From a virus: a DNA stretch of 22,310 bases. The position numbers and the translations under genes were made by a program. The stretch is taken from IMG/VR virus record IMGVR_UViG_3300000116_007530, positions 1-22,310 of that record; one strand, given 5' to 3'. The notes under the pieces are model-generated. The model did not search any database. It was not told the origin of the DNA and worked only from the letters and a program-made list of their open reading frames with translations. Of the stretch, positions 9,412 to 22,310 are shown in pieces. Each line of letters begins with the position of its first letter. Position 1 is the stretch's first letter.

Positions 9412-10575
9412 TTATCTAACAGTGCTTTCTCTACTTGCAATTTGTCTAAATACTTCTAAATAAATATTACTTATGTTTTTCCAAGTATTATCAAGCATAC
9501 TATTTTCTGCTTTTTCAGCTAGTTGATTCTCTCTAGTATGAGAGTGGTATATTGTTCTCATTATATTTGATAAATGATCTTTATTAGGTTCATGATAGAA
9601 TGAGTGAGTACTCATATTAGTCATAGCATCTCCTGGTTTCATAGCAAATACATTTTGATTAGTTATATCCATATTACTTCTTTGAGTTGCAATTTTATAA
9701 CCAGAATCTTCTGTAACAAAGTCATCCGTAGGGCCTTGCGCAGATACTATAGGTACACATCCACAAGCTATAGCTTCTTGAATATGCATCCCAAATCCTT
9801 CGGCTCTATACGGATGTACTATCATCTGTGAATTTTTAAATATAGAAGCTATTTCAGTATCAGATAAATCATCGTTAATGTATATTACTTCTGCACAATC
9901 TGTCTTGTACTGCATTTTAATAGTTTCATTTAGTATGTTACTTTGCCCATATATTTTAGGATTATCTTTAATTATTAATCTAACATTATCATATTTTTTA
10001 AATGCCTCTTTCCAAACATTCATCAGAATATCTAGACCTTTTCTCCACTGAGAATTTCCTAGATATACAAAATTAAACTTATCTGACTTAGCATATTTAT
10101 CTGGATCTGGTGTAGCTTCGGTATTAAATATATTATCATTATAGCCATTTGGTACTACATATAGATTACCAGGTTTCATACCTGCTTGACCAAATATATT
10201 AGCTATATATTTACTAGGAACTATTAATGCATCTGCAAATGTTTCAAATTTATATTGCCATTCAAAAGGTACTTTATTATATTCCCATGGCTGTATATAG
10301 ATAACTTTAGTAGTATCTGATGTAGGCCAGTTCCAAATAGGAGGATAAGTATGTCTAACTTGTATATCTGGACTGTTTCCAAGGTTTATACTCTGTAATT
10401 TTTTTAATTGTTTGACTATATTTTTATCTACTTGATACTCAGGATCATAAGCATCTAATGCAGTAATTCCTATCTCAATATCAGGATGCAAGTTACTAAT
10501 ATTAGTAACTATATTTCTATTAACAATAGAAAGAGAGTGATTATCATAAAATTTTCCAACAAATTCAATTTTCAT
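9412..10575 (-). CDS. Glycosyltransferase, GT-B fold (GT4-like)
   Basis: The 387-aa protein has two Rossmann-like halves. The second begins FNFVYLGNSQWRKGLDILM (about 167-185), the usual start of the donor domain with an RKG-type motif, and contains HPYRAEGFGMHIQEAIACG, where E259 and E267 form the EX7E motif of GT4 retaining enzymes. The first half ends VPSKYIANIF...VVPNGYN, typical of this group. It should transfer a sugar from a nucleotide donor to a glycan acceptor at the cytoplasmic side. It is separated from the next upstream gene by a single base and is one of five glycosyltransferase-like genes in the operon. Donor and acceptor are unknown. Confidence 0.9.
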   Translation of the reverse strand: MKIEFVGKFYDNHSLSIVNRNIVTNISNLHPDIEIGITALDAYDPEYQVDKNIVKQLKKLQSINLGNSPDIQVRHTYPPIWNWPTSDTTKVIYIQPWEYNKVPFEWQYKFETFADALIVPSKYIANIFGQAGMKPGNLYVVPNGYNDNIFNTEATPDPDKYAKSDKFNFVYLGNSQWRKGLDILMNVWKEAFKKYDNVRLIIKDNPKIYGQSNILNETIKMQYKTDCAEVIYINDDLSDTEIASIFKNSQMIVHPYRAEGFGMHIQEAIACGCVPIVSAQGPTDDFVTEDSGYKIATQRSNMDITNQNVFAMKPGDAMTNMSTHSFYHEPNKDHLSNIMRTIYHSHTRENQLAEKAENSMLDNTWKNISNIYLEVFRQIASRESTVR

Positions 10576-10576
10576 A

Positions 10577-11407
10577 TTAGTAAGCCCATTCTCTATGTTG
10601 TCTAATGTAGTCTTCTACTTGATCTGTATTAATAGGCACTAATTTAGGCCATTGAGCTTCACCTAGTCCTGATGTTTTAAAATTACGTAGATCTGTATAG
10701 TTATCAAGAGTAACCTGATTCCATACATTATAAAATGGATCTTTTTCTACAAGATCAGAATGTCCTATATTATTAATCTTTTGATGCAGATCTTCTTTAC
10801 TTCTACATAGACTCCAATGAAGAGCTACGAGCGGGGATAACAATCTATTATGTCCTGCAGAACTTTTGTTAGTCCATCTAGCATATACAAAAGTACTATC
10901 ATCAGAAGTTACTATGCCTTGATTTTCCCCAAAAAAAGGCGTGTCATCTTCATTAGCTATTACTAAGGTGGTATCATCAATAGTTTTATAAGGAGTAGCC
11001 CAAGTCATACAAATATCTGCCTTTGTATAGTATCTTTCCACTAAAGGACAAAAATCATAGAAAAATTCTTTAGGATTAATTAGCCATTCATCAGCATCAA
11101 AAGAAAAAATCCAATCATTAGAACAGTTAGACTTTAAAAAGTTTCTTTCATAATTATCATTTTCTATCGCAACCTCACCTTTAACAAAATCTTCTTCAAT
11201 AATAGATATTTTACTATCACCATCAATAGCATTTAACTCTGACCATAGTTGTGACTCATTAAATGAAAAACTATTACCGCTCCAGGTTTTCCTATTTTTA
11301 TCTAGTCCTAAAATAATTTCATCTACATAATTATAGTATCTCTTAATACTTTCTGGTAAATAACTTGCATCATAGCTTACTAAGCTAATAACTGACTTCT
11401 TTTTCAT
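10577..11407 (-). CDS. Glycosyltransferase-like protein, GT-A type
   Basis: The N-terminus (VISLVSYDASYLPESIKRYYNYVDEIILGLD) resembles GT2/GT92-type proteins that begin with a strand and a helix and then a VDEI-ILG segment. WIFSFDADEWL carries the metal-binding DxD (D104, D106). Later RLLSPLVALHWSL and aromatic-rich segments fit an acceptor-binding region. At 276 aa it has the size of a single GT-A domain, with no membrane helix. Its ATG directly abuts the stop of the methyltransferase gene. The substrate cannot be assigned. Confidence 0.72.
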   Translation of the reverse strand: MKKKSVISLVSYDASYLPESIKRYYNYVDEIILGLDKNRKTWSGNSFSFNESQLWSELNAIDGDSKISIIEEDFVKGEVAIENDNYERNFLKSNCSNDWIFSFDADEWLINPKEFFYDFCPLVERYYTKADICMTWATPYKTIDDTTLVIANEDDTPFFGENQGIVTSDDSTFVYARWTNKSSAGHNRLLSPLVALHWSLCRSKEDLHQKINNIGHSDLVEKDPFYNVWNQVTLDNYTDLRNFKTSGLGEAQWPKLVPINTDQVEDYIRQHREWAY

Positions 11408-12088
11408 TTATGCCTCTTTTTTAGGTTTAAACATTGTTTTTTTGAAAAGTATAATTCTTATCCCATTAAACCAGCCATTAGTATTGCCCATAGTTCTAAC
11501 GGTTTTTTCTTCTTCGTGTAGTATCTTATAATGATCTTGATATTTAGCTAAAGATTGTGTCAAAGGTAGCGCAGAATCTTCTAAAGAAGTGTTTGTAAAA
11601 ACTACTAGACATTCTTGTGCTAAATTAGGAAAAACTTTTTCAAAAAAGTTTTCATAAGTTTCCTTTGTTACTGGAGTTACATCAAAGTGTACTATATTAA
11701 ATTTTGGTAATTTTTTATAGTTTACTGACTCAAAACTATCTTCAATAAAATTAACATTTGATTCTTCCGTACTTTGGTCTTTTACATTGTGTAAGTTTAG
11801 GTGATGATCAAAAACATCTCTCATACTACTTTTTATAACAAAATTATCAATTCCGACACATTTAGTTTTATGATTACCGGCAGCAGCTGATAGTAATGTA
11901 CCCCCACCTTGTACACCTATCTCAAGATAATTTACATTATCTGCTGCACACAAATTATTTAATAGATGTCTGATTTCTTCTGAAGACTCTCCCATTATTG
12001 TTTGATAATGAAATTGCAGTAATTTAGATTTATTCTGTGCTGCTAGTTCCAACGCTGCTTTTATCCAAGCCACATTTAATTTAGCCAT
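11408..12088 (-). CDS. Class I SAM-dependent methyltransferase-like protein
   Basis: VNYLEIGVQGGGTL (residues 53-64) is the glycine-rich SAM-binding motif I, and CVGIDNF with D81 ends the second strand, as in class I methyltransferases of the Methyltransf_24 group. A later strand, FNIVHFDVTP, fits motif IV. It probably methylates a sugar in the glycan made by the surrounding genes, a common role in O-antigen clusters. The ATG has a strong SD (GGAGG) and overlaps the stop of the small membrane protein as TAATG. The second methyltransferase-like gene in the window (20160-20867) is only distantly similar. Confidence 0.75.
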   Translation of the reverse strand: MAKLNVAWIKAALELAAQNKSKLLQFHYQTIMGESSEEIRHLLNNLCAADNVNYLEIGVQGGGTLLSAAAGNHKTKCVGIDNFVIKSSMRDVFDHHLNLHNVKDQSTEESNVNFIEDSFESVNYKKLPKFNIVHFDVTPVTKETYENFFEKVFPNLAQECLVVFTNTSLEDSALPLTQSLAKYQDHYKILHEEEKTVRTMGNTNGWFNGIRIILFKKTMFKPKKEA

Positions 12089-12318
12089 TATTTCCTCCTT
12101 CTAAAAAGTAAGTTATCTATAAAGTAGAATGGTATGTATAATACAAGAAATACTGTAGATATAATTACAAAAGGAATAAAAACAAATAAGAGGCAGATAA
12201 TTAACCACATAAACACAAAAAATACTAATATAGGAGCATTATTTGATGGTTTAAGTTGTTTTGCCTCTTGTTTAATTCCAGTCCACATTTCTTCTTTAGA
12301 TATATATATCTTATCCAT
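12088..12318 (-). CDS. Small two-TM membrane protein, 76 aa
   Basis: Residues about 30-48 and 50-69 are almost wholly hydrophobic (ILVFFVFMWLIICLLFVF and VIISTVFLVLYIPFYF), separated by one proline. The N-terminal 28 residues are polar and charged, and the C-terminus is RRRK, suggesting both ends face the cytoplasm in a hairpin topology. I recognise no family. It overlaps the GT2 gene upstream by 8 bases and the methyltransferase gene downstream by 1. It may anchor glycosyltransferases at the membrane or be unrelated to the pathway. Confidence 0.65.
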   Translation of the reverse strand: MDKIYISKEEMWTGIKQEAKQLKPSNNAPILVFFVFMWLIICLLFVFIPFVIISTVFLVLYIPFYFIDNLLFRRRK

Positions 12319-13051
12319 TTTTAATTTCTTTGTCCAGCATTTTATAAAATTTTGAATTTGCCCATTTAGATTTTAATGTTTCTAAATTTCTGGTTTCCAT
12401 GTTTGCTTTAGATTGATCTTTTACTCTTTTATTATCTCTAGATTCGTGGTGGTACAGTCTTACTGGAATCTGATAAATTTGTTCTCCTGCTTCACGAGCT
12501 GTCAAACAATAGTCTACGTCTCTATTATATGTCCATTCATATTCCGGTGAAAAGTTACCCACAGTATTTAAAAAACTTCTTCTTAAATAACAGCCGCCAA
12601 ATGTAGTCCAAGCTACTTCTCTGACTATATCATACTGTCCAGTATCTAATTTAAGATTATTTTTAAAGGTAGAACTATTTTCTAAAACTAACCCGCTACC
12701 AAAATGATCAGGATTTCCATTAGTAAAAGTACCTCCTGCACATTGAATATAAAATTGTTTTTGTTCATTCTGCGCAGGATAAAGTAATAGACATCCAAAC
12801 ATACCTGCTTCAGGATATTTTTTTACATAGTCTAAAACTTCAACAAACCAATTATCATGATGAGGAGTCATATCTGCATGAAGAATAAATATATCATCTT
12901 CAGGATATTTATTCCACATTTTTTGATACATAAGATCTGATCCTATACCTGCCTCATCTTGTTCATAATGTACATCTAGTTCCCAAAACATATCCTTATG
13001 TTGTGATATTTCTTGTTCATATACATATGGTGTAATTATTTTAACTGTCAT
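12311..13051 (-). CDS. GT2-family glycosyltransferase
   Basis: Conserved GT2 elements appear in order: DDIFILHADM around residues 52-61 with HAD in the DxD position, WTTFGGCYLRR (148-158) for the acceptor loop, and NRDVDYCLTAREAGEQIYQIP (176-196), the (E/R)D-x-D-C/L-x-R-x-x-x-x-G block seen in rhamnosyl- and related transferases. At 246 aa it is a single catalytic domain, without membrane helices. It likely adds one sugar to a surface or virion glycan. Its end overlaps the membrane protein, and its start overlaps the small Cys-rich gene. Confidence 0.85.
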   Translation of the reverse strand: MTVKIITPYVYEQEISQHKDMFWELDVHYEQDEAGIGSDLMYQKMWNKYPEDDIFILHADMTPHHDNWFVEVLDYVKKYPEAGMFGCLLLYPAQNEQKQFYIQCAGGTFTNGNPDHFGSGLVLENSSTFKNNLKLDTGQYDIVREVAWTTFGGCYLRRSFLNTVGNFSPEYEWTYNRDVDYCLTAREAGEQIYQIPVRLYHHESRDNKRVKDQSKANMETRNLETLKSKWANSKFYKMLDKEIKNG

Positions 13052-13265
13052 CTTTTACTCTTTCTTCTCTTAATTGGCAACCTTCTGGTATGTATCTTAC
13101 AATCGTTGCCTTATTTACCAAATAGTTATCTTCTTCTCCTGATGCTACATATTTGCGAGGTTTTGGATTATACTTTTGATTTTCTGGGTGAAAACATAAA
13201 ACTCCTTGTCCTGCACCTATAGCCCAACAAACATACTTACATTGCCAACAATCACTACTGTACAT
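13041..13265 (-). CDS. Small cysteine-rich protein, 74 aa
   Basis: From the ATG at 13265 the protein begins with C6-x2-C9-x3-C13, then C24 and H26 within LCFHPEN. This spacing could bind zinc or an iron-sulfur cluster, but it is not the radical-SAM CX3CX2C order. The remainder is polar with several charged residues and a further cysteine near residue 63. I chose this ATG over an in-frame TTG at 13307 because the TTG would overlap the neighbour by 53 bases. The ATG overlaps the upstream stop by 11 bases and the end overlaps the GT2 start, as in the rest of the operon. Function unknown. Confidence 0.5.
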   Translation of the reverse strand: MYSSDCWQCKYVCWAIGAGQGVLCFHPENQKYNPKPRKYVASGEEDNYLVNKATIVRYIPEGCQLREERVKDDS

Positions 13266-13473
13266 TCCAAGTTCTACCTTCAGGGTATTCTTCCAAGAAC
13301 CACTCAATACCTTCTAAGTAATCTTTGTCTTCATCATTCATATAACTTCTATACACATTTACTTGCGCCATTTTTGTTACTACATTGTGCAGATTTTCTA
13401 AATGTGCATCACTTTCCATCATGGCCTGCAATTCATCCATCAGTGGTGTAATTTTTTCTTGAATTTTACTCAT
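13255..13473 (-). CDS. Small hypothetical protein, 72 aa, helical and acidic
   Basis: I do not recognise it. The sequence is mostly helical and acidic: MDELQAMMESDAHLENLH, an amphipathic helix, then YMNDEDKDYLEGIEWFLEEYPEG. No cysteine, signal or membrane segment is present. Its stop overlaps the start of the Cys-rich gene by 11 bases, and its ATG follows the phosphomannomutase stop by 6 bases. Support is from packing and orientation only. Confidence 0.5.
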   Translation of the reverse strand: MSKIQEKITPLMDELQAMMESDAHLENLHNVVTKMAQVNVYRSYMNDEDKDYLEGIEWFLEEYPEGRTWNVQ

Positions 13474-13479
13474 ATTGTA

Positions 13480-14229
13480 TTATTGTCCATATTTTAATAA
13501 ACCTGCTGGGTAAAATGTTGTTAGTACTGTTATTTGTTTTAGTATTTCCCAGGTATCTTGCCAATCAGTAACATTATAGAATGTACCTCTATTTTGATCA
13601 ACTATTTTATTAGCAATAGACCAGTCATTGCCACCTTGAAATATTGCATCCCCAAAAAAATGTAACTGATCGTTTTCATTAAAATCTATGAGTATCTGAC
13701 TTTTATCAAAACCTTTTGGGCCTATATCTATTCCTGTTTCCCCACCTGCTGTTGCGTTTAGTGTCGGAAATCTTAAATTAAAATCATGTACAATATGGTT
13801 ACGTTCATTATACTTTTTATCCCATTCTATATACAACATACGTTCTGCTAATATAGCATTACGACCTACTATACTAAAATTAAGCATGCCGGAGCGTTCT
13901 TCTATATGTAATCCAGTTCGTAAAACAAAATTACTTTCTTCTAGTCTATCTTCTAACCAACTTATTACATTACTAGGAATTTTCCAAGTAACAGTTCTTA
14001 TATTTTGATCACCTTCATAAACATCACAACCAGAACAATTGTAAACACGTTTACATTTAAAGTAAATATATTCTCCTATTTGTTCAACTGTTTTAGTACG
14101 ATCACTTCCTGTAACCAAATAAACATTATTTGTTTCACAAAATTTACTAAACCATATAGCAAACTTTTTATTCATACGCTTACGACTGGGTGTTAGTGTT
14201 CCATCAACATCAAAAATATATTTATACAT
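13480..14229 (-). CDS. Phosphomannomutase, eukaryotic (HAD-IIB) type
   Basis: FDVDGTLTPSR (residues 6-16) provides the HAD nucleophile D7 and acid/base D9. TGSD (40-43) is HAD motif II. HIEERSGMLNFSIVGRNA (108-125) matches the sugar-phosphate cap segment of eukaryotic PMM, GGETGIDIGPKGFDK (162-176) the family's GG-x-x-x-D-x-x-P-x-G-x-DK block, and FFGDAIFQGGND (191-202) HAD motif IV. At 249 aa it matches that family in size. The enzyme converts mannose-6-phosphate to mannose-1-phosphate, the precursor of GDP-mannose; bacteria usually use an unrelated alpha-D-phosphohexomutase for this. No mannose-1-phosphate guanylyltransferase is visible. It overlaps the SDR gene as TAATG. A related sugar phosphatase is the alternative. 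Confidence 0.82.
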   Translation of the reverse strand: MYKYIFDVDGTLTPSRKRMNKKFAIWFSKFCETNNVYLVTGSDRTKTVEQIGEYIYFKCKRVYNCSGCDVYEGDQNIRTVTWKIPSNVISWLEDRLEESNFVLRTGLHIEERSGMLNFSIVGRNAILAERMLYIEWDKKYNERNHIVHDFNLRFPTLNATAGGETGIDIGPKGFDKSQILIDFNENDQLHFFGDAIFQGGNDWSIANKIVDQNRGTFYNVTDWQDTWEILKQITVLTTFYPAGLLKYGQ

Positions 14230-15239
14230 TAAATTAATTTATCTGTCCAAGTTTTAGGAGTGTCTTCAGTAATTAATTCTAAAGGAAGGTGATATTCAAA
14301 TTCTTTTTTGATAGGTCTAATCCAACCAATCATATCTTTAATAGTTTGTTCTGTACTTGTTGTAGCATTATAGTTAAATTCTTTTCTAATTTTATCACTT
14401 AAACAATATGCATCTTTAACTTCCCTAGGTCTATCAGGGTAATAATCAAGAGATCTATAAGTTTCACAATGATGTAATACTAATGCTGCAAGTTGTTTAA
14501 TACTCATTTCATTATCATCAGGCCCAATATTAAATACCTGTCCACATAAATCTGTTCTGGTACTTTGTATAATTCTTTCAACAGCTATAATACAATCTCG
14601 TACATCTGAAAATGAACGTTTTTGTTCTCCATCACCATATACAATTAAATTTTTATTATGTAGCGCTCTGTTAATCATTATTCCTACTACATTTCTAAAA
14701 GGATCATAATATCTTTGTCCTACACCTATAACATTATGAGGTACTACTGTAACATACTGTAATCCGTGTATCTCACTTAACATTTGTAAGTGTTGTTCTG
14801 CTTGTACTTTAGCTAGTCCATAAGGGTCTACTGGTTTAGTAGGCATATCTTCTGTAAATGGCGCAACTTGGTCTCCATACCTAGCCATAGAAGAACAATT
14901 AATAAATAGTCTAACTTTGTTGTGTAATGCCGCTATTGCCGTACTTATTGTTCCAGATACAATGCTTGTAGCTGTTACTGTAGGAGAAAATACACTTAAA
15001 CCCTCATAAGGAAGTGATGCAGTATGAAATACTACTTCACATCCTATCATAATTTCTTTCATAAGTTTGGTATCAAGTATATCTCCTCGATGATATACAC
15101 ATTTTGGAGTATCGGGTACGTTACCTTCAACTCCTCCTATCATATTATCAATTCCTACAACTTCATGACCTTTATTAATTAGATGTCTAGCCATTCTACT
15201 ACCTAGTAAGCCACTAACTCCTGTAATAAAAACTTTCAT
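14229..15239 (-). CDS. Extended SDR, UDP-glucose 4-epimerase-like
   Basis: ITGVSGLLG (residues 5-13) is the NAD-binding GxxGxxG, followed by VVGIDN. S116/S117 and Y140-x3-K144 (YGLAK) form the catalytic set. The later FNIGPDDNEMSIKQLA block and YYPDRPREVKDAYCLS match nucleotide-sugar epimerases and dehydratases. The 336-aa start at 15239 fits the MKVFITG opening and the TAATG overlap; two earlier in-frame ATGs would add residues before the strand. It would act on a nucleotide sugar, perhaps at C4 or as a reductase after the RmlB-like enzyme. Specificity cannot be read from sequence. Confidence 0.85.
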   Translation of the reverse strand: MKVFITGVSGLLGSRMARHLINKGHEVVGIDNMIGGVEGNVPDTPKCVYHRGDILDTKLMKEIMIGCEVVFHTASLPYEGLSVFSPTVTATSIVSGTISTAIAALHNKVRLFINCSSMARYGDQVAPFTEDMPTKPVDPYGLAKVQAEQHLQMLSEIHGLQYVTVVPHNVIGVGQRYYDPFRNVVGIMINRALHNKNLIVYGDGEQKRSFSDVRDCIIAVERIIQSTRTDLCGQVFNIGPDDNEMSIKQLAALVLHHCETYRSLDYYPDRPREVKDAYCLSDKIRKEFNYNATTSTEQTIKDMIGWIRPIKKEFEYHLPLELITEDTPKTWTDKLI

Positions 15240-16219
15240 TACCATTTCCACTTTCTTTTTTTATAATAATTAACTAACTTAATAATTTCTTCATCAAAAT
15301 TCTTTTGAGGACTCCAACCATAATTTTTAATAGACTCACATGATATTGAATATCTTACATCTTGTCCTGGTCTATCATATTCATAATCTATATGTTCATT
15401 ATAATCTGGTATATCTATATCTATAGAACCCATAAAATAAGCATTTATAATTTTTGTAACAGTTATAAAATTTGTTTGTTCATAATCTGATTGTATATTA
15501 TAAATATTATTTCTACACGCTTTTTCATACAATAAAATAAATGCTTCTGCTGTATCTTCTACATGAGTCCAAGATCTGATAGGTAAGCCTTTATTATGTA
15601 CTTTAATTTTTTTATTTCTTTGTAATCTTCTAACTGCAGTAGGTATTAGTTTTTCTGGATATTGATTAGCTCCATAATTATTAGAAGGTCTAGCAATTAT
15701 ATATTCTAATCCGTGAGTTCTAGCCCAACTTTCAATTAACATATCTGCAGCAGCTTTAGTAGCTGCATAAGGATTACTTGGGTTTAGTGTAGATGTCTCA
15801 TCAAAACTTCCTTCCACTGTATCTCCATATACTTCATCAGTTGACACTTGAAAAAACAATGGTTTATTATTTTTAATTTGAACACTTTTATGAGTTATAA
15901 TTTCTAATAAGTTTTTTACTCCTGAAATATTAGAATCAATAAACTTATCTACATTCATTATACTATTATCAACATCAGATTCAGCAGCAAGATTAAATAC
16001 CACATCACATTCCGGCAATCTTTTAATATCTTTAATATCTTGTTCAACAAATTTAAAGTTAGAGTATTCTAAAGTTAAATCAGTAAGTTCGTCTGTATTA
16101 GCTACATAAGTTAATTTATCTATACCATATACTAACCAACCTTTTGAAAGTAATAATTTAGTAAAAGTAATACCAATAAATCCTGCACATCCTGTTACTA
16201 CAGCTATTTGTTTAGACAA
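15239..16219 (-). CDS. dTDP-glucose 4,6-dehydratase-like SDR (RmlB-like)
   Basis: TGCAGFIG (9-16) is the Rossmann motif. STDEVYG carries the dehydratase pair D128 and E129, and Y151-x3-K155 (YAATK) is the SDR catalytic pair. SNNYGANQYPEKLIP and RSWTHVEDTAEAF are RmlB-like, and NLAAESDVDNSI replaces the usual HLAAESHVDRSI. Length is 326 aa, near the family. It should make a 4-keto-6-deoxy nucleotide sugar, probably from dTDP-glucose. The start is TTG at 16219: GGGAG precedes it by 7 bases and no ATG precedes the Rossmann motif. The adjacent DegT-type aminotransferase fits the next step, an amino sugar. RmlA, RmlC and RmlD are not in view. Confidence 0.85.
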   Translation of the reverse strand: MSKQIAVVTGCAGFIGITFTKLLLSKGWLVYGIDKLTYVANTDELTDLTLEYSNFKFVEQDIKDIKRLPECDVVFNLAAESDVDNSIMNVDKFIDSNISGVKNLLEIITHKSVQIKNNKPLFFQVSTDEVYGDTVEGSFDETSTLNPSNPYAATKAAADMLIESWARTHGLEYIIARPSNNYGANQYPEKLIPTAVRRLQRNKKIKVHNKGLPIRSWTHVEDTAEAFILLYEKACRNNIYNIQSDYEQTNFITVTKIINAYFMGSIDIDIPDYNEHIDYEYDRPGQDVRYSISCESIKNYGWSPQKNFDEEIIKLVNYYKKRKWKW

Positions 16220-17199
16220 TCTTCTACTCCCTCGGTAATTCCTATACAGTTTATATGTTCAAATGTAAATGTAGCTCCTGGTAGTCCTCTAAGTGGTTTA
16301 TAATATTTTTTAACTTCTCTCTCTGTTTTATCATTAGAAAAAGTATCTTTAAATACATAAGGCAAACAGGTAGGAAAAAATGATTTAGAGTAGTTAGGCC
16401 AAAAATCACCTTCATGATTAATCATTTCATAACGCAATTTATAATAGTTATTTTGGTACATTTCTTTTAAAGTATTTATATCAAATTGATCCCACCATTG
16501 TAATATAGCGGCAGCACTTATATCGCTCATTTTATAATTACTACCGTATTCATTAAATGACTGATCTAATTTTCCAAAATTACAAGCAGCTCTAACATGA
16601 GTTTCATATTCTCTATCTATAATAGCTAGTCCACCTTCTCCGAACCCTAAAGGTTTAGTATGGTGTAGAGAAATATAACTAGCAGTTCCAAGATTACAGC
16701 TATTAGTGTCATTCCAAAAAGAGTATGGAGTAGCTGCATTATCAAATATTAATTTTTTACTTCTGCCCTCAGTTTTAGCACTTACTTCATCTAAATTTTC
16801 TAAGTGTCCAAAACAATTTGTTACTATAACTAAGTCTGATGACTCTTGTAAGTACTGATCGTCTAAATTAATACAGTATTCAGAGTTAAGATCTGCTATA
16901 ATTGGACCAGAGGCTGGTCCTTGAGAGTTTGAAGGAAAAGTAAAATCTGAAGTAGATATTCTATATTGATGCTTATCTTTTCTTATCATACCGTATAATA
17001 TAGCATGTAAAGCTGATGTCCCACTAGAAGTAGCAATAACAGCTTTACTATCATCAATTTTTAACATATACTTAGCTCGTAACTCAAGTTCACGAACAGC
17101 CCAACCATCATTAGTAAATTGATTAGTTGTTTGTGCAGTAATTAAGTATTCAGCAAATGCGTCATGATTTAAATTTTTCTTTAAAATAAAAGGTATCAT
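16204..17199 (-). CDS. DegT/DnrJ/EryC1/StrS-type PLP aminotransferase
   Basis: The protein has ATSSGTSALHAI (56-67), the PLP phosphate site; LIFDNAATPYSFW with D153, which contacts the PLP ring nitrogen; and YISLHHTKPLGFGEGG with K182, the Schiff-base lysine. NYKMSDISAAAILQW is the usual conserved segment near the dimer interface. At 331 aa it is shorter than the 370-390 aa norm, mainly in the C-terminal part. I start at the ATG at 17199, which overlaps the upstream stop as ATGA, not at the in-frame TTG at 17211. It probably transfers an amino group to the keto sugar made by the RmlB-like enzyme; position (C3 or C4) is not determined. Confidence 0.88.
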   Translation of the reverse strand: MIPFILKKNLNHDAFAEYLITAQTTNQFTNDGWAVRELELRAKYMLKIDDSKAVIATSSGTSALHAILYGMIRKDKHQYRISTSDFTFPSNSQGPASGPIIADLNSEYCINLDDQYLQESSDLVIVTNCFGHLENLDEVSAKTEGRSKKLIFDNAATPYSFWNDTNSCNLGTASYISLHHTKPLGFGEGGLAIIDREYETHVRAACNFGKLDQSFNEYGSNYKMSDISAAAILQWWDQFDINTLKEMYQNNYYKLRYEMINHEGDFWPNYSKSFFPTCLPYVFKDTFSNDKTEREVKKYYKPLRGLPGATFTFEHINCIGITEGVEDCLNK

Positions 17200-17954
17200 A
17201 AATCTTTCCAATTTCTAAACGGAGATACCCAAGGATCTACACAGTGAGTTGCAAGAGCAGGCATCGCAGATACAATACTTTTATTAGCTTGTTCTAATAA
17301 TTTAAATTTATTATGATCACCTAAATTAAAATGAATATGCTTATCTTGTTTAAAATCTTTTACACGACCTGCAAAAGTTCCACAAGTACTAGGAACAGTT
17401 CTCCAGTGACAATAATTAGAAATTATTATCTGACTATGTAAACCTACATATCTTTGTGAGTATTTATCAGGATGATCATAAAGAGATACATAGTTTAACG
17501 AGGGATACACATCATAAACATTTTGTAGTGCAGTAGGCCATCCTGAAAGATGTAGATAATCATCTTCTACCATATAAATAATATCACTATCATCCCAGTT
17601 ATCAATGTTTGCATATATAAATTCATACATTAAGTGTCCTGCAGCTTTTTCATTATCAGGAGCTTCTACGCGTTTACGATAAATATTACCTGCATCATCA
17701 TTATCTTCATAATATAAATCAGCTTCTTCCCATTCTTTTAGTAGTTCAGGTAGTTTTTCATCTGAGTTAATCTCTAGAATATTAGCGTGATATCCCCATT
17801 CTTCTACTCCCTGTAACTTTCCATCATATAAAACCCAAAGTTCACTATCTTCTTTGGTAGCAACTAGGTTTTCCCAACAACTTCTATAATGAAACCAATC
17901 AGGTCTATTATTATAATTAGTCGAGTTATGTGTTCTATAAATTATACGAATCAT
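17196..17954 (-). CDS. Glycosyltransferase-like protein, GT-A type
   Basis: The N-terminus (IRIIYRTHNS) and the central IIYMVEDDYLHLSGWP (about 126-140, with E130-D-D132 in the DxD place) match a group of GT-A-like proteins in phage and surface glycan clusters. The end, ALATHCVDPWVSPFRNW, looks like the distal metal or acceptor site. At 252 aa it is one domain. Its end overlaps the aminotransferase start, and its start overlaps the PhyH-type gene as ATGA. I am confident of the general class, not of the sugar transferred. Confidence 0.7.
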   Translation of the reverse strand: MIRIIYRTHNSTNYNNRPDWFHYRSCWENLVATKEDSELWVLYDGKLQGVEEWGYHANILEINSDEKLPELLKEWEEADLYYEDNDDAGNIYRKRVEAPDNEKAAGHLMYEFIYANIDNWDDSDIIYMVEDDYLHLSGWPTALQNVYDVYPSLNYVSLYDHPDKYSQRYVGLHSQIIISNYCHWRTVPSTCGTFAGRVKDFKQDKHIHFNLGDHNKFKLLEQANKSIVSAMPALATHCVDPWVSPFRNWKDL

Positions 17955-18673
17955 AGTTTTACCGGTTTATAAATGTAAGGATGAGGATACCCTCTTTCAA
18001 CAAAATTAGGATCATACATATTATTAAATCTAAAATGTGCAGACCATCTAGTTCCTACTTCTATTGTACCACTTCTATGTACTAAATTAGAATCAAATAT
18101 TAATACAGAGCCTTTAGGCACGTCTACTGCTTTAAATTCTAGTTCTTCTGTGTCTTTAACTTGTCCAAAACCTTCTTCAATATCAGAAGATAAATCACCT
18201 AATTTATGACTTTTTGCTACAACTTCTAATCTACCAAGCTTTTCAGTTATGTCTATTAGAGGAACCCAGCAAACTAGCGCGTCACTAGAGCCTTGCATAG
18301 ATTTAGAATCCTGATGAGCTGGAGTGGTATGGTGTATTGCTTTATTAGCTGTATGTTTATTATTAAAAAATACTACAGGACGAGTACAAATATTAACTAA
18401 AGGATCTTTCATAAAGTTTCCTACTTTATATCCTAACATTACTCCTAAATGATGAAGTTGTAGATTCCATTGAGCATGTTTTGCACAATTTAAAAATCTA
18501 TCGTTATGCTTTTCGTACAGCTCTATAATATCAGTACTGTTTGTATATTCTACTTGTGACATGAATAATGCAGTTATACTATTTTTAACATCATCTAAAA
18601 ATTGATGTTCTACCATTTTTGGTATAATAGCATATCCGTCTTCTTCTAGTTGCGAAATATATTTAGGGTTCAT
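17951..18673 (-). CDS. PhyH-family 2OG-Fe(II) dioxygenase
   Basis: HQDSKSMQGSSDALVCWVPL starts with the iron-binding H120 and D122, followed by GRLEVVAKSHKLG, the typical PhyH strand and SH segment. VDVPKGSVLIFDSNLVHRSG holds the distal H199, and R209 or R215 can bind 2-oxoglutarate. The layout matches phytanoyl-CoA dioxygenase-like proteins in natural-product and surface-sugar clusters, so a sugar or lipid precursor is a plausible substrate. It overlaps both neighbours as ATGA. This is the third 2OG-Fe(II) oxygenase in the window, and a different subfamily from the two near 6-9 kb. Confidence 0.86.
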   Translation of the reverse strand: MNPKYISQLEEDGYAIIPKMVEHQFLDDVKNSITALFMSQVEYTNSTDIIELYEKHNDRFLNCAKHAQWNLQLHHLGVMLGYKVGNFMKDPLVNICTRPVVFFNNKHTANKAIHHTTPAHQDSKSMQGSSDALVCWVPLIDITEKLGRLEVVAKSHKLGDLSSDIEEGFGQVKDTEELEFKAVDVPKGSVLIFDSNLVHRSGTIEVGTRWSAHFRFNNMYDPNFVERGYPHPYIYKPVKL

Positions 18674-19554
18674 AATTTATCTATATCCATTGTTGCATGT
18701 GCTATACCAGTTTTTCCAAAACCATTACCATTATAAAACATATGAAGTTTATCTTTATAAGGAATTATTGCTGGGTAAGCACACATAATTGACTCAAATT
18801 CTAGTTCTTGTACTATACCAAATTTTGTATCTCTTGACCAGGCATAACCATCTTTAGAAGTGGCATGCTGTATAGTATAAGCATGTTCAGGATTAGTTCT
18901 AAATTCAATACTATTTCTCACAGAAAACCACATATGAAAAATGTCTTTATGTTTATACACTGTAGCAGCAGAAATACCTGCTTCTTCTCCACGTAGTTTT
19001 ATTGTAGGTACAACTGATTTATTCCAATATATACCATCTTCTGAAGTAGCTAGTCTAATATTATAAGAAGGTTGCAAATTACCATTTTCATCTGGCAACC
19101 ATTTATTACAAGATAAGTAGTAACCCATATATACATTATTAAGTTTAATTACGCATATAGTGCCTGAATATCCTTGATCTATTACATTTGGAGAAAGTAT
19201 GGGTCCAAGTTTTTTAAACTTAGCATTTAAACCTTCTTCTGCTACAGAACAATAATTGTAGTAAGGAACATCTTGTCTTATAGTCCATCCTATGTAGTAT
19301 AGTTTATCTTCAAATTTACAGACGGGCATAACACCTGCTGAATCAGTACTTCCAGGCTTACCAGCTACTAATATTTGTTTAGCAGGAGCTAGTATTTTAG
19401 ATGGTTTACCTTTTTTTACGTCAATAAAATATCCTTCATTTTGGTTTAATTTATTACGAGAAGTAAAGTATATCCTCCAAGAACAATTTCTTTCCTCTAC
19501 TACAGGTAACTGTGCTTTTTTATCAGAATAAATAATACCATGTTTATTCCACAT
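18670..19554 (-). CDS. Five-bladed beta-propeller protein, glycosidase (GH43/GH32-like) superfamily
   Basis: Repeated propeller blades are visible: YNIRLATSEDGIYW (164-177), YTIQHATSKDGYAWSR (226-241), and TGIAHATMDID near the end, each with the S-x-DG-x-x-W turn. GEEAGISAATVY and FHMWFSVRN follow a catalytic-blade-like layout, and CAYPAIIPYKDKLHMFYNGNGFG is typical of this superfamily. At 294 aa it is a single propeller without a signal peptide, so it acts in the cytoplasm. Such proteins appear in O-antigen clusters without proven activity; a glycoside hydrolase, transferase or sugar-binding role are open. I cannot confirm the acidic catalytic residues by eye. Confidence 0.72.
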   Translation of the reverse strand: MWNKHGIIYSDKKAQLPVVEERNCSWRIYFTSRNKLNQNEGYFIDVKKGKPSKILAPAKQILVAGKPGSTDSAGVMPVCKFEDKLYYIGWTIRQDVPYYNYCSVAEEGLNAKFKKLGPILSPNVIDQGYSGTICVIKLNNVYMGYYLSCNKWLPDENGNLQPSYNIRLATSEDGIYWNKSVVPTIKLRGEEAGISAATVYKHKDIFHMWFSVRNSIEFRTNPEHAYTIQHATSKDGYAWSRDTKFGIVQELEFESIMCAYPAIIPYKDKLHMFYNGNGFGKTGIAHATMDIDKL

Positions 19555-20167
19555 TCTTTAATCTCCGTGCTGGACTTCCTCTATATAAACCCCACGGTTC
19601 TGTAATATTTTTAGTTACAGAAGTATCCATAGCTAACATGGTGCCCTCTGCAATTTCCATAAAATCACGTATGGTAGAGTTGACTCCTAACCATGCATAT
19701 TTACCAATATGACAGTGTCCGGACTGTACAACATGAGAAGTATAAAATACATGATCGTCTATAATACTATGATGCCCTACATGATTTCCAGCCCACATAA
19801 CAACATTATTACCTACTGTTGTTTTATATTGTATATTAGTAAATTCTTGAATAAAGCAGTTATCTCCAATAGCATTTTTATTCCAAATTCTAGCATCATG
19901 ATGTATAAAAGTAGGCATTGAGTATCCACGACTTTTGCATGCTCTATAAATTTTTGCTCTTGTTCTATTATCTGCTAATGGAGCAAACATATCATAATCA
20001 GTTGCAGGATAATCCTCTGCTATTGTAGCAAAATCATGCATAGGTAAACCAAAAGCTGTATCTGATTCAGGATTATCTTTAGTAAATCCCACAACTCTTT
20101 TACCCCAGTAAAATTTAGCCATTTCAGCTAAATCTCTATCTCCAAATACAATAATTGGTTTAGTCAT
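19544..20167 (-). CDS. Left-handed beta-helix acyltransferase (NeuD/PglD-like)
   Basis: An N-terminal Rossmann-like segment (IIVFGDRDLAEMAKFYW, then VVGFTKDN) is followed from about residue 85 by hexapeptide repeats (AIGDNCFIQEFTNI, TTVGNNVVMWAGNHVGHHSII, CHIGKYAWLG). NHVGHHSIIDD holds the histidines used as general base in this family. The end, GLYRGSPARRLK, is the usual C-terminal CoA-site strand. PglD/NeuD-type enzymes acetylate amino sugars on nucleotide carriers, which fits the RmlB and DegT genes downstream. AAGGAG precedes the ATG at 20167 by 7 bases. The acyl donor could be other than acetyl-CoA. Confidence 0.85.
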   Translation of the reverse strand: MTKPIIVFGDRDLAEMAKFYWGKRVVGFTKDNPESDTAFGLPMHDFATIAEDYPATDYDMFAPLADNRTRAKIYRACKSRGYSMPTFIHHDARIWNKNAIGDNCFIQEFTNIQYKTTVGNNVVMWAGNHVGHHSIIDDHVFYTSHVVQSGHCHIGKYAWLGVNSTIRDFMEIAEGTMLAMDTSVTKNITEPWGLYRGSPARRLKNVE

Positions 20168-20867
20168 TATTTGACTCCTTATAGTCAGGTCTGTGATTAG
20201 CTCCTTGTGCAGCTTTTTCCTGATGATTTTTCATATCTTGATACTGTTCTTCAGTAAGCTTAGCTAAAATGGTTAATCCCATACACTCATTAGTATGATA
20301 GTATACCATCCATTCTTCATTTTCTTCTAAAAATTCATTGATAGCTGGAACAATTTCTTGACCACAACCCACTGTATCATGAAATACTAAATATTTTGAT
20401 GCTTTATTACCATGCAGTTTAAGCTCTGCAGATAGTTGATCATATGTATGATCTGTATCAAACATAATCATATGGGCTGATATAATCTCTATGTCAAGAG
20501 AACTAGCTTCCATAAAATTATGAATTACATTATTTTCTAATGCAATATCTTGAAAGTGTTTTAGTGTTCCAGGACCACCAAATTTATCAGGATGTATATG
20601 ATCAATTGAGTGAATAATAGCTCCTGGTGTTATTGTTAATTTTCTAGGACTAGCTTCTACAAAACAAGTATTTCTATCTGCCATACCTGTTAAAAATGCC
20701 CAACTAGCACCTAGCTCTCTAACACCTAACTCATAAATAATACTACAATCAGCAGCAAAATCTCTTAACACAGGAAAATGAAAAGCCATATCAGATAAGG
20801 CATTTCTACTATTGGGGGCAATTTCAGATTTTTCATTATAAATTTTAAGTAGTTCGTCTGTTATCAT
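20160..20867 (-). CDS. CmcI/Methyltransf_24-like SAM methyltransferase
   Basis: IYELGVRELGASWAFL (44-59) is the SAM-binding motif, MIMFDTDHTYDQLSAELKL (134-150) resembles the D-x-DH-x-Y segment of CmcI-like and Methyltransf_24 proteins, and YLVFHDTVGCG follows as the usual next strand and HDT motif. At 235 aa it has one catalytic domain, and the last 30 residues are polar with no motif. It likely methylates a sugar of the glycan. The stop overlaps the acyltransferase start, and its ATG overlaps the WbqC stop as ATGA. Confidence 0.75.
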   Translation of the reverse strand: MITDELLKIYNEKSEIAPNSRNALSDMAFHFPVLRDFAADCSIIYELGVRELGASWAFLTGMADRNTCFVEASPRKLTITPGAIIHSIDHIHPDKFGGPGTLKHFQDIALENNVIHNFMEASSLDIEIISAHMIMFDTDHTYDQLSAELKLHGNKASKYLVFHDTVGCGQEIVPAINEFLEENEEWMVYYHTNECMGLTILAKLTEEQYQDMKNHQEKAAQGANHRPDYKESNND

Positions 20868-21538
20868 TTTTCTATTAACTCATATTTATTTAAATTATTT
20901 TTTATATTCTCAGTTTCAAATCTGAAAAGTAAATCTATAATTGATGTTGCAGGTAATATGTCTTTTCTATTTATAAATCTCAAATGTATAGGATTAAATA
21001 GTTCTTGTGTATAGAAAGGTAAATTTAATCCTCCAATAGGATTAATATACATATTTGCACCTAACTCACTACATATAGTGATAATCTTTTGTTCTGCTTT
21101 TAAATGCTCTACGTCAAATGATGAAGATAAGTGCCATTTTGATGTTATATTAAGTATATCTGCTATAGTTTCAAAAATTAAAACACAAGCGTCTGAAAAA
21201 TTTTTATCTTCTAATTCTTTTATAAGTGAAAAAAGATGAATAGAGTATTCTTCAAAATATGGACTCTTCTGATAGTTGTGTTGGATTGACCTAATTAATT
21301 TTGTAGACCAGCCTGACCCAACATAATGTTCGTTAATTTTTTTATTCTGAGAAATCTTACTAACTGGAATGGTAAAGATCTGTTCTTTACCCTTAGTTGT
21401 AAATTTGTTTCTATTCATCCAACCTTTTTTAATAAAAGTAACATCATCCATAAATACAAAATGATCTACAGCATTCATAAGTTGTAAGTATCCTATATAT
21501 GGAAACATATAGGGTTGCATTATAGCTACCTTAATCAC
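20864..21538 (-). CDS. WbqC-family protein
   Basis: The opening VAIMQPYMFPYIGYLQLMNA, then VDHFVFMDDVTFIKKGWMNRN, is the signature of the WbqC family (PF08889), found in O-antigen and other surface-sugar clusters and of uncertain biochemical role. The 224-aa length is normal for it. The start codon is GTG at 21538: it gives the usual short lead before the IMQPY motif, and the codon overlaps the upstream stop by 8 bases. It supports the reading of this region as a surface- or virion-glycan operon. Confidence 0.9.
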   Translation of the reverse strand: MIKVAIMQPYMFPYIGYLQLMNAVDHFVFMDDVTFIKKGWMNRNKFTTKGKEQIFTIPVSKISQNKKINEHYVGSGWSTKLIRSIQHNYQKSPYFEEYSIHLFSLIKELEDKNFSDACVLIFETIADILNITSKWHLSSSFDVEHLKAEQKIITICSELGANMYINPIGGLNLPFYTQELFNPIHLRFINRKDILPATSIIDLLFRFETENIKNNLNKYELIEK

Positions 21539-22103
21539 TTACTACACCAGATGATAAAGTGCAACAATTTGTAATATTATCAAATAGTATTTCTCCAGAA
21601 CATAGTAAGTTAGAGTCTCCAGTAGATACTCCTTTAGAAATTGATGCATAAGGATGAAGTACATTATGCTGTTCTATAGAACAATTTACACCAATAGAAG
21701 AATATGCACAGAATAAATTAAAGCTACCTATATCAGTATTTGCATTTATCAATGAATACATTAAAAATAAATTACCAATACCCATTGTAGCGCTAATTGA
21801 TTGATATGCATTAGGTGCTGATACATTAGGCCAATGATTTATTGTATGTTCGTAGTGTTCAGAGAAATGAAGATAAAATTCTTCTCTCCAATCTAAATTA
21901 TCTGTTCCTATGATAAATTGAGCATTATTAGGATATTTAAAAGTATCTACACCTTCTTCTCCAATGCAAAAAGCTTTATCATCTTTTAGGACGATAAAGC
22001 CTCCAAAATTATTTATAGAATTAGCTACCACTATTTGCTCAAACACTTCTTGAGAAAAGCTACCATTTCCAAGAATATATATTTTATTATCTATTTTATC
22101 CAT
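21531..22103 (-). CDS. NeuD-like sugar acyltransferase, second copy in the cluster
   Basis: YILGNGSFSQEVFEQIV (9-25) is the Rossmann-like N-terminal strand and helix of NeuD-type proteins. From about residue 100 there are short hexapeptide-like repeats (MGIGNLFLMYSLI, TDIGSFNLFCAYSSIGVNCSI, HNVLHPYASI, STGDSNLLCSG). The repeats are less regular than in the copy at 19544-20167, and H141 and H145 are the only candidate bases near the expected site. At 190 aa it ends early, lacking the G-x-PAR-type C-terminal strand. It may be a divergent or inactive acyltransferase. No SD is seen before the ATG, which lies 33 bases after the tmRNA piece. Confidence 0.68.
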   Translation of the reverse strand: MDKIDNKIYILGNGSFSQEVFEQIVVANSINNFGGFIVLKDDKAFCIGEEGVDTFKYPNNAQFIIGTDNLDWREEFYLHFSEHYEHTINHWPNVSAPNAYQSISATMGIGNLFLMYSLINANTDIGSFNLFCAYSSIGVNCSIEQHNVLHPYASISKGVSTGDSNLLCSGEILFDNITNCCTLSSGVVSD

Positions 22104-22136
22104 TTATATTTTTTATAAATAAAACCTCTGTTAGTA

Positions 22137-22307
22137 GGCCCGTTCTGTTTCTAGGTGGAACCCATACCCACCAGCATCATGCGGCTAACGCATAACCTGT
22201 AGGAGCAAAATTATCATTTGCATTTGTAGTTGTCTTACGATTAAGGTTGTTTGCACACCTGCTTCTCCACTTAACTATACACTACCTGTCGATCCTATTT
22301 CAGCCCC
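22137..22307 (-). ncRNA. ssrA: tmRNA coding piece (permuted, two-piece type), partial gene
   Basis: On the minus strand GGGGCTG starts at 22307 and continues AAATAGGATCGACAGG, the conserved 5' tRNA-like half of tmRNA, including the third G expected to form the G-U pair read by alanyl-tRNA synthetase. A pseudoknot-like region follows (GTTAAG near 22276 can pair with CTTAAT near 22245). A tag frame then ends GCG-TTA-GCC-GCA-TGA (stop 22179-22177). After the stop come a hairpin (GGTGG at 22172-22168 with CCACC at 22158-22154) and ACAGAACGGGCC, which can pair with the acceptor piece. A gene starts 33 bases later, so the 3' tRNA half is not downstream. It must lie upstream beyond 22310, as in permuted alphaproteobacterial tmRNA. 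Exact mature ends are estimates. Confidence 0.85.
22177..22221 (-). other. tmRNA proteolysis-tag reading frame
   Basis: From GCA at 22221 the frame reads ANDNFAPTGYALAA, then TGA. The AND start resembles enterobacterial and alphaproteobacterial tags, and the ALAA end is the classic ClpXP degron. The frame stays open upstream through AAT, ACA, ACT and ACA, so the resume codon could lie up to four codons earlier. GCA is chosen because most tmRNAs resume at an alanine codon. Confidence 0.75.
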
Positions 22308-22310
22308 ATC

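Follow-up and report, generated by a model that had tools for sequence, protein, structure and literature searches.

Coding piece at the end of the window

The window, i.e., the whole stretch of 22,310 nt that was analysed, ends in the coding piece of a permuted tmRNA of the alphaproteobacterial type, which occupies its last 178 bases (22133-22310, minus strand). The original prediction had placed a tmRNA coding piece at this edge and had named covariance models as one way to check it; two Rfam models detected it above threshold despite the contig end. In a cmscan search of the window, RF04321 (tmRNA_permuted) scored 62.2 bits against a gathering score of 47 (22310-22177, minus strand), and RF01849 (alpha_tmRNA) scored 52.9 bits against a gathering score of 50 (22310-22133, minus strand). 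Both matches were 5'-truncated at the record end and were reproduced on the short stretch alone. The window is the entire virus record (G000, 22310 bases), therefore the gene was truncated by assembly and not by biology. The following features were assigned.

22308-22310, minus strand: GAT, the final three bases of the spacer (IVS), from comparison with loci L057 and L068
22133-22307, minus strand: coding piece, from 5' GGGGCTG to a 3' end near CCTACT; above the gathering scores of RF01849 and RF04321 and identical to the coding piece of L057 over all compared bases
22301-22307, minus strand: GGGGCTG, 5' strand of the acceptor stem, which pairs with CAGCTCC of contigs G001 and G002 to give the G3.U70 alanine identity pair
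22288-22300, minus strand: tRNA-like D-loop region AAATAGGATCGAC, a conserved match to RF04321 and RF01849
22236-22260, minus strand: PK1 region, with P3 (AGGU/ACCU) as an Rfam stem; a P4 (UGUG/CGUA) within it is proposed by eye from relatives with UGCG/CGCA and is weak
22177-22221, minus strand: tag frame from GCA to TGA, ANDNFAPTGYALAA plus stop; ARAGORN gives the same tag on L057
22135-22172, minus strand: terminal H-type pseudoknot with an AACAGAA loop and stem B UGGGUUC/GGGCCUA, assigned by eye; stem B covaries in relatives
21531-22103, minus strand: next gene downstream (190 aa), about 30 nt past the tmRNA, which opens a run of surface-sugar genes

Beyond the contig end lie the acceptor piece of the gene and the remainder of its spacer. 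The tag at 22221-22177 is an intact ORF with a proteolysis-type end (ALAA) and a stop codon; the ALAA end had been read from the letters alone. The hairpin proposed after the tag was also found, but by eye it is better taken as one half of the H-type pseudoknot (22172-22135). No tmRNA was called by ARAGORN on the window, because the acceptor piece is absent there. The single-strand folding energy of the fragment was uninformative (z = 0.43), which is no surprise where only half of a pseudoknotted two-piece RNA is folded.

Complete gene in contigs of the same species

Two contigs, G001 (37,286 bases) and G002 (45,551 bases), were 99% identical to the last 8.3 kb of the window, which was the part queried. 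They carry the complete gene in the order acceptor piece, spacer, coding piece: the sequence reads ...GCTGAACTGGACTCGGGGGCAGTACCCGACAGCTCCACCA, then the 25-nt spacer TAAGTACATAATGTGTATTTTTGAT, then GGGGCTG. An acceptor piece had been predicted upstream of GGGGCTG on the minus strand, and it is present in these contigs 25 nt past the position of the contig end. It ends in ...CAGCTCC-ACCA, so that CCA is encoded. The T-loop did not follow the prediction: a TTCRA type had been expected, while the loop is GGCAGTA, which is usual for the phage and alphaproteobacterial genes compared here. The coding piece of G001 and G002 was identical to that of the window over all bases compared. As the two contigs are 99.99% identical to each other they count as one independent observation; independent relatives are the loci L037, L114, L053, L094 and L260. 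The complete gene in L057 scored 127.3 bits with RF04321 and 108.9 bits with RF01849, and ARAGORN called it with the same tag as in the window. The reading frame upstream runs into the first part of the acceptor piece before it stops, and the next gene downstream follows about 30 nt after the coding piece, from which we infer that the tmRNA is probably cut from a longer transcript.

The phage and its gene neighbourhood

The replication genes in the window encode a D5-like regulator (phrog_323, E=2.5e-28), an NAD-dependent ligase (E=2.3e-115) and a DnaB-like helicase. Among cultured phages, T5-like ones were closest in the ligase and helicase (about 30-35% identity), and the gene order resembles that of Vibrio phage D254. 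A search with the ligase recovered 43 contigs including near-complete genomes of 117,378 and 115,658 bases. The larger one (G472) encodes a terminase, a portal protein, a polymerase and a major tail protein, whose best matches were led by T5-like phages of about 116-128 kb. Judging by the replication genes and their order, together with the structural genes and genome size of its relatives, the phage is a marine T5-like phage; this assignment does not include a gene-sharing network or a tree. The D5-like PHROG was rejected as a marker specific to the clade when other contigs were judged, since the family also matched 11 of 14 control genomes.

A permuted tmRNA above the cut-off was detected in 15 of the 43 contigs, including both genomes of about 116 kb, and many of the remaining contigs were too short to show its presence or absence. 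The gene recurs across the clade down to about 52% ligase identity.

Surface-sugar genes fill much of the window outside the replication genes. Behind the tmRNA (9412-22103) there is a long run of sugar-nucleotide, glycosyltransferase and acyltransferase-like genes, including a GDP-mannose dehydratase-like gene, a DegT aminotransferase, WbqC and a eukaryotic-type phosphomannomutase (PF03332). The 190-aa gene at 21531-22103 had no Pfam or PHROG match.

Structure and covariation of phage permuted tmRNAs

A total of 423 phage permuted tmRNA genes with 309 distinct spacers were collected. This large set was gathered with exact DNA patterns and its frequencies are consequently biased. The alanine identity pair G3.U70 was present in all 423 genes, although the gene finder would equally have taken G-C at this position. 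In the window species it is part of the acceptor stem GGGGCTG/CAGCTCC, and relatives carry GGGGGCG/CGCCTCC, GGGGTCG/CGACTCC or GGGGCCG/CGGCTCC with the G.U always at position 3. Inside the T5-like clade the acceptor stem therefore covaries (CTG/CAG, GCG/CGC, TCG/CGA, CCG/CGG). A completely paired T-stem, built from 11 different pair sets, was present at all 120 of 120 loci. The T-loop was mostly GGCRGTA, as in alphaproteobacteria. The stem of the terminal pseudoknot was altered on both sides (e.g., GCCACTT/AAGTGGC, GGAGAGA/TCTCTCC, TGGGTTC/GGGCCTA), and its longest helix averaged 6.2 bp, compared with 5.0 bp for shuffled partners (max 5.3). PK1 pairing in the lineage of the window is present and weakly supported. 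The PK2 region of the bacterial and alphaproteobacterial RNA appears to be missing from the phage RNA. SmpB (PF01668) was not found in 50 phage records, thus host SmpB would be needed.

Some phage permuted tmRNAs have no PK1. These comprised 32 of 120 first-scan loci (e.g., L003, L009, L011 and L022) and 25 of 350 distinct genes, with only 26-28 nt from GGATCGAC to the resume codon; the tag, acceptor piece and terminal pseudoknot are conserved. When checked singly, L003, L009 and L011 passed Rfam and were missed by ARAGORN. Two contigs with a PK1-less tmRNA carry a T4-type gp23. Loss of PK1 was not observed among the measurable bacterial comparison genes, and P2 covariation in the PK1-less RNAs was not significant (-8.42 vs -8.19 kcal/mol with shuffled partners). 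An E. coli tmRNA without PK1 has been reported to tag proteins (cited in PMC4236655).

The spacer hairpin and its exchanged alleles

The ends of the spacer paired over at least 7 bp in 93% of 74 distinct spacers of at least 34 nt. The terminal helix averaged 9.9 bp, compared with 5.6 bp for shuffled partners (max 6.05) and 4.0 bp for shuffled letters. This set of 74 combines the first scan, which made no demand on the spacer arms beyond their last three bases, with the T5-like genes. Minimal spacers, such as the 25 nt of the window species, consist of just the terminal hairpin. The median spacer length was 81 nt in phages versus 24 nt in bacteria (33 distinct bacterial spacers, a few of which form a similar hairpin).

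The tip of the hairpin was hypervariable: 272 spacers of at least 45 nt fell into 154 clusters, 106 of them singletons. Many of the larger clusters span genes that differ in acceptor stem (two to four kinds per cluster), and some span both normal and PK1-less tmRNAs. In the clade of the window itself, exchange could be followed on two closely related tmRNA backgrounds. The coding pieces of L057/L068, L094 and L053 are 99-100% identical to each other, and their spacers are an empty 25-nt hairpin, a 75-nt cassette A and a 94-nt cassette B. A second group (L260, L037 and L114), with coding pieces 98-99% identical to each other and about 95% identical to the first, carries the same three spacer alleles. 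The coding pieces of L094 and L053 are identical at 170/170 positions with unrelated spacers, while cassette A is common to L037 and L094 (73/75) on different backgrounds and cassette B to L114 and L053 (76/94). As far as comparison of sequences can demonstrate it, the spacer is a covarying hairpin with unrelated inserts at its tip that are exchanged between phages.

The spacers of L091 (298 nt) and L104 (257 nt) contain two or three hairpin units in tandem. The units are split by short acceptor-end-like pieces, e.g., GGGGCTGACAGCGACTCCACCA, as if duplicated or nested.

Small ORFs and RNA folds in the spacer

Among 81 spacers of at least 100 nt, 27 contained an ATG frame of at least 22 codons behind an RBS-like motif, versus 3.5 expected from letter shuffles (max 6). 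Six spacer ORF families, each compared internally, gave pN/pS ratios of 0.06-0.34, and by this measure the spacer ORFs are under purifying selection. One family is DUF6356 (PF19883, E = 5e-12); the remaining families tested gave no known family or weak matches. The DUF6356 ORF (63 aa) is located in the spacers of L275, L251 and L304, which are PK1-less tmRNA genes with the acceptor stem GGGGGTG. Several spacer frames cross the spacer end into GATGGGGCTGAAATAG and have their stop codon within the tmRNA, and others terminate at the last bases of the spacer.

One cluster had a tRNA-like fold, with six pairs changed on both sides among four sequences. On average the non-coding inserts were barely more stable than shuffles (mean z -0.41), so the proposal that all of them are structured RNAs was unsupported. 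No known RNA family exceeded threshold within the spacers of the loci scanned.

Permuted tmRNAs in cultured phages

Permuted tmRNAs with a spacer insert were identified in five cultured phages: Phaeobacter phage MD18 and DSS3_MAL1 (98 nt), Rhodobacter phage RcXuper (109 nt), Ruegeria phage vB_RpoS-V10 (111 nt) and Sinorhizobium phage Phosso (410 nt). The tmRNA is unannotated at the locus in four of the five records. In Phosso (PV764938.1; L249, 853-1603) the unannotated gene was also missed by ARAGORN, and its 410-nt spacer has two inverted repeats, CATCATAACAACATG/CATGTTGTTATGATG and AAAACATAAG/CTTATGTTTT. A BLASTN search of the window tmRNA against cultured phages returned only a 38-base match, to Phosso. 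Pelagibacter phage HTVC008M also scored for RF04321. In three cultured roseophages a GOLLD RNA lies directly upstream of the permuted tmRNA (L709, 138-605; L710, 295-758; L712, 408-841), and in two of the three a tRNA-Arg is inside the GOLLD span.

Host

An alphaproteobacterial host, which had been proposed from the tmRNA type, is plausible and remains unproven. The type of RNA agrees with it, and phages that infect Rhodobacterales and Sinorhizobium carry relatives of the gene; the evidence is limited to RNA type and base composition. Melnitz has an alpha-type tmRNA although its host is not an alphaproteobacterium (PMC9004378), thus the tmRNA type may mislead about the host. The exact start sequence of the tmRNA was found mainly in marine Rhodobacterales, e.g., Planktomarina, and no full-length match to the coding piece was obtained in 385 alphaproteobacterial genomes. 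Assignment of the host by tmRNA similarity was dropped because the acceptor stems differ within the clade, the genome has 31% G+C and there is no full-length bacterial match. A Rhodobacteraceae MAG (Water_Bin34; G009, L146) gave eight alpha_tmRNA matches, of which a single one was strong (284 bits) and the other seven resembled those of phages; the MAG therefore probably includes several phage contigs.

Proposed function and alternative explanations

What the window carries is very probably one piece, the coding one, of a two-piece tmRNA gene that is complete and looks functional in the T5-like phage itself and is cut here only by the end of the assembly. There are no expression, processing or tagging data; cleavage into two RNAs, alanylation, SmpB binding and trans-translation are inferred, and the steps of processing, charging, tagging and spacer release are deduced from established tmRNA and tRNA biology. 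The precursor would be transcribed within a longer phage RNA. Cuts before GGGG by host RNase P and after CCA by a host 3' tRNA nuclease would free the spacer. The phage tmRNA would be charged by host AlaRS and brought to stalled ribosomes by host SmpB, and the ALAA tag would direct the stalled product to ClpXP-type proteases. The simplest reading of a rescue RNA owned by the phage would be sustained translation while host messages decay.

The spacer hairpin may clamp both halves of the acceptor stem. Such a clamp would allow inserts of very different size to be tolerated, and the discarded spacer could thereby become a cargo slot. The maturation of the tmRNA by RNase P and the 3' tRNA nuclease would then also excise the cargo, which may be a small RNA, a tRNA-like RNA or the message of a small protein. 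Rapid exchange between phages would be expected for anti-defence or exclusion genes. Where a cargo ORF runs into the tmRNA (at GATGGGGCTGAAATAG), the cut by RNase P would remove its stop codon, and the message would become a rescue substrate. Taken jointly, a dedicated cargo slot in phages of Alphaproteobacteria with clamp, co-excision, rapid exchange and stop loss is a tentative proposal, possible but short of probable. A cargo slot with a clamp hairpin, shuffled by recombination, is nevertheless the interpretation we favour.

A real alternative, which we regard as unlikely without being able to set it aside, is that the inserts are selfish mobile elements homing into the spacer without gain to the phage. 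The single fixed site, the terminal inverted arms, the tandem copies in L091 and L104 and the recurrence of one insert on genes that differ in acceptor stem (up to four stems) are all in agreement with such elements. However, 154 clusters with 106 singletons are too diverse for one element family, the arm sequences vary and do not form one fixed end sequence, no transposase or homing enzyme was recognised, and recombination at the flanking tmRNA would account for their exchange. Neutral drift, or mistakes of assembly, in a segment that is discarded anyway is an improbable source of the spacer differences. The spacers are absent from the mature tmRNA and the non-coding inserts show little excess folding, which speaks in its favour; the same three alleles nevertheless occur on two tmRNA backgrounds (L094/L053, L037/L094), the arms stay paired, the ORFs have the low pN/pS ratios given above, and inserts are found in cultured phages too. 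For the ORF-bearing and shared cassettes this explanation is already contradicted, although it could still hold for some singletons.

Two further explanations concern the tmRNA itself. The RNA could be a decoy competing with host tmRNA or SmpB instead of rescuing ribosomes, for which the tag-less form of phage DS6A is a precedent (cited in PMC11915505) and with which the lack of a detected phage SmpB in 50 records would agree; we consider it quite improbable, since the tag frame, the ALAA-type end, G3.U70 and the terminal pseudoknot are conserved in many genes and a pure decoy needs none of them. That the locus is a piece of host ssrA which a prophage left behind on integrating or excising (an attachment-site remnant), or that the contig ends at a border between host and phage DNA, is scarcely credible. 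In favour of it, tmRNA genes are frequent integration sites (PMC11915505 and PMC9004378) and the match does stop at the contig end. Against it, the same-species contigs carry the whole gene with phage sequence for more than 18 kb on the far side, the phage is T5-like with the gene recurring down to the ligase identity given above, the coding piece is far from bacterial genes with no full-length match in the 385 genomes, and G472 points to a tmRNA away from any integrase in a complete genome of the clade (the integrase search was not exhaustive).

With a phage-owned rescue RNA as the preferred interpretation, virus-encoded ribosome rescue now reaches into a T5-like lineage. One comparison also brings together several hundred phage permuted tmRNA genes. 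Structural constraint acts on the very part of the gene that was supposed to be discarded; phages exchange this part among themselves, and small proteins are often encoded in it. As a cargo slot, if it is one, the spacer would be a compact place in which to seek unknown small proteins and RNAs of phages that annotation misses. The same arrangement is present in cultured phages of tractable hosts (Ruegeria, Rhodobacter, Phaeobacter and Sinorhizobium) and can therefore be tested.

Comparison with known systems

Two-piece tmRNAs in phages have already been published for the Methylophilales phage Melnitz and related marine phages, with a count of 53 such structures among phage isolates, of which 50 are from marine or aquatic sources, and with a glutamine riboswitch at the Melnitz ssrA gene (PMC9004378). 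The phage-borne permuted tmRNA of the original prediction is thus real, while carriage by a phage is not new. The window gene belongs to a known kind, but no previous report was found for this phage lineage. The likeness to Melnitz lies in a phage-borne, alpha-type, permuted gene; Melnitz is a T4-like myophage, whereas the window phage belongs to a T5-like lineage. Spacer inserts are not discussed for the Melnitz group in the passages of that publication that were read, and they are present among the phage genes collected here.

The T5-like phages (Vibrio phage D254 and T5-like phages of Salmonella and Klebsiella) share with the window lineage the D5-like regulator, NAD ligase, DnaB-like helicase, polymerase, major tail protein and a genome size of about 117 kb. 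Their proteins are only about 30-41% identical to those of the window lineage, and Vibrio phage D254 had no permuted tmRNA above the cut-off.

The alphaproteobacterial permuted tmRNA (RF01849; merged RF04321) has the same order of pieces, G3.U70, a GGCRGTA T-loop, the D-loop sequence, the same start of the tag (often ANDN) and a terminal pseudoknot with an AACAGAA loop. The phage genes scored about 60-130 bits, compared with 228-303 bits for bacterial chromosomal genes; relative to the alphaproteobacterial RNA the PK2 region appears to be deleted in phages, and the spacers are longer (median 81 vs 24 nt).

In the tmRNA database there are 79 phage sequences, and unusual spacers have been described for two permuted genes, one with a tRNA-Ala gene and one with a repetitive element (PMC11915505). 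No description of a swappable spacer hairpin with small protein genes was found. The two unusual spacers likewise show that a spacer can hold extra sequence, but they are reported as single cases, whereas the phage spacers form a recurrent hairpin slot with exchange between lineages and protein-coding inserts.
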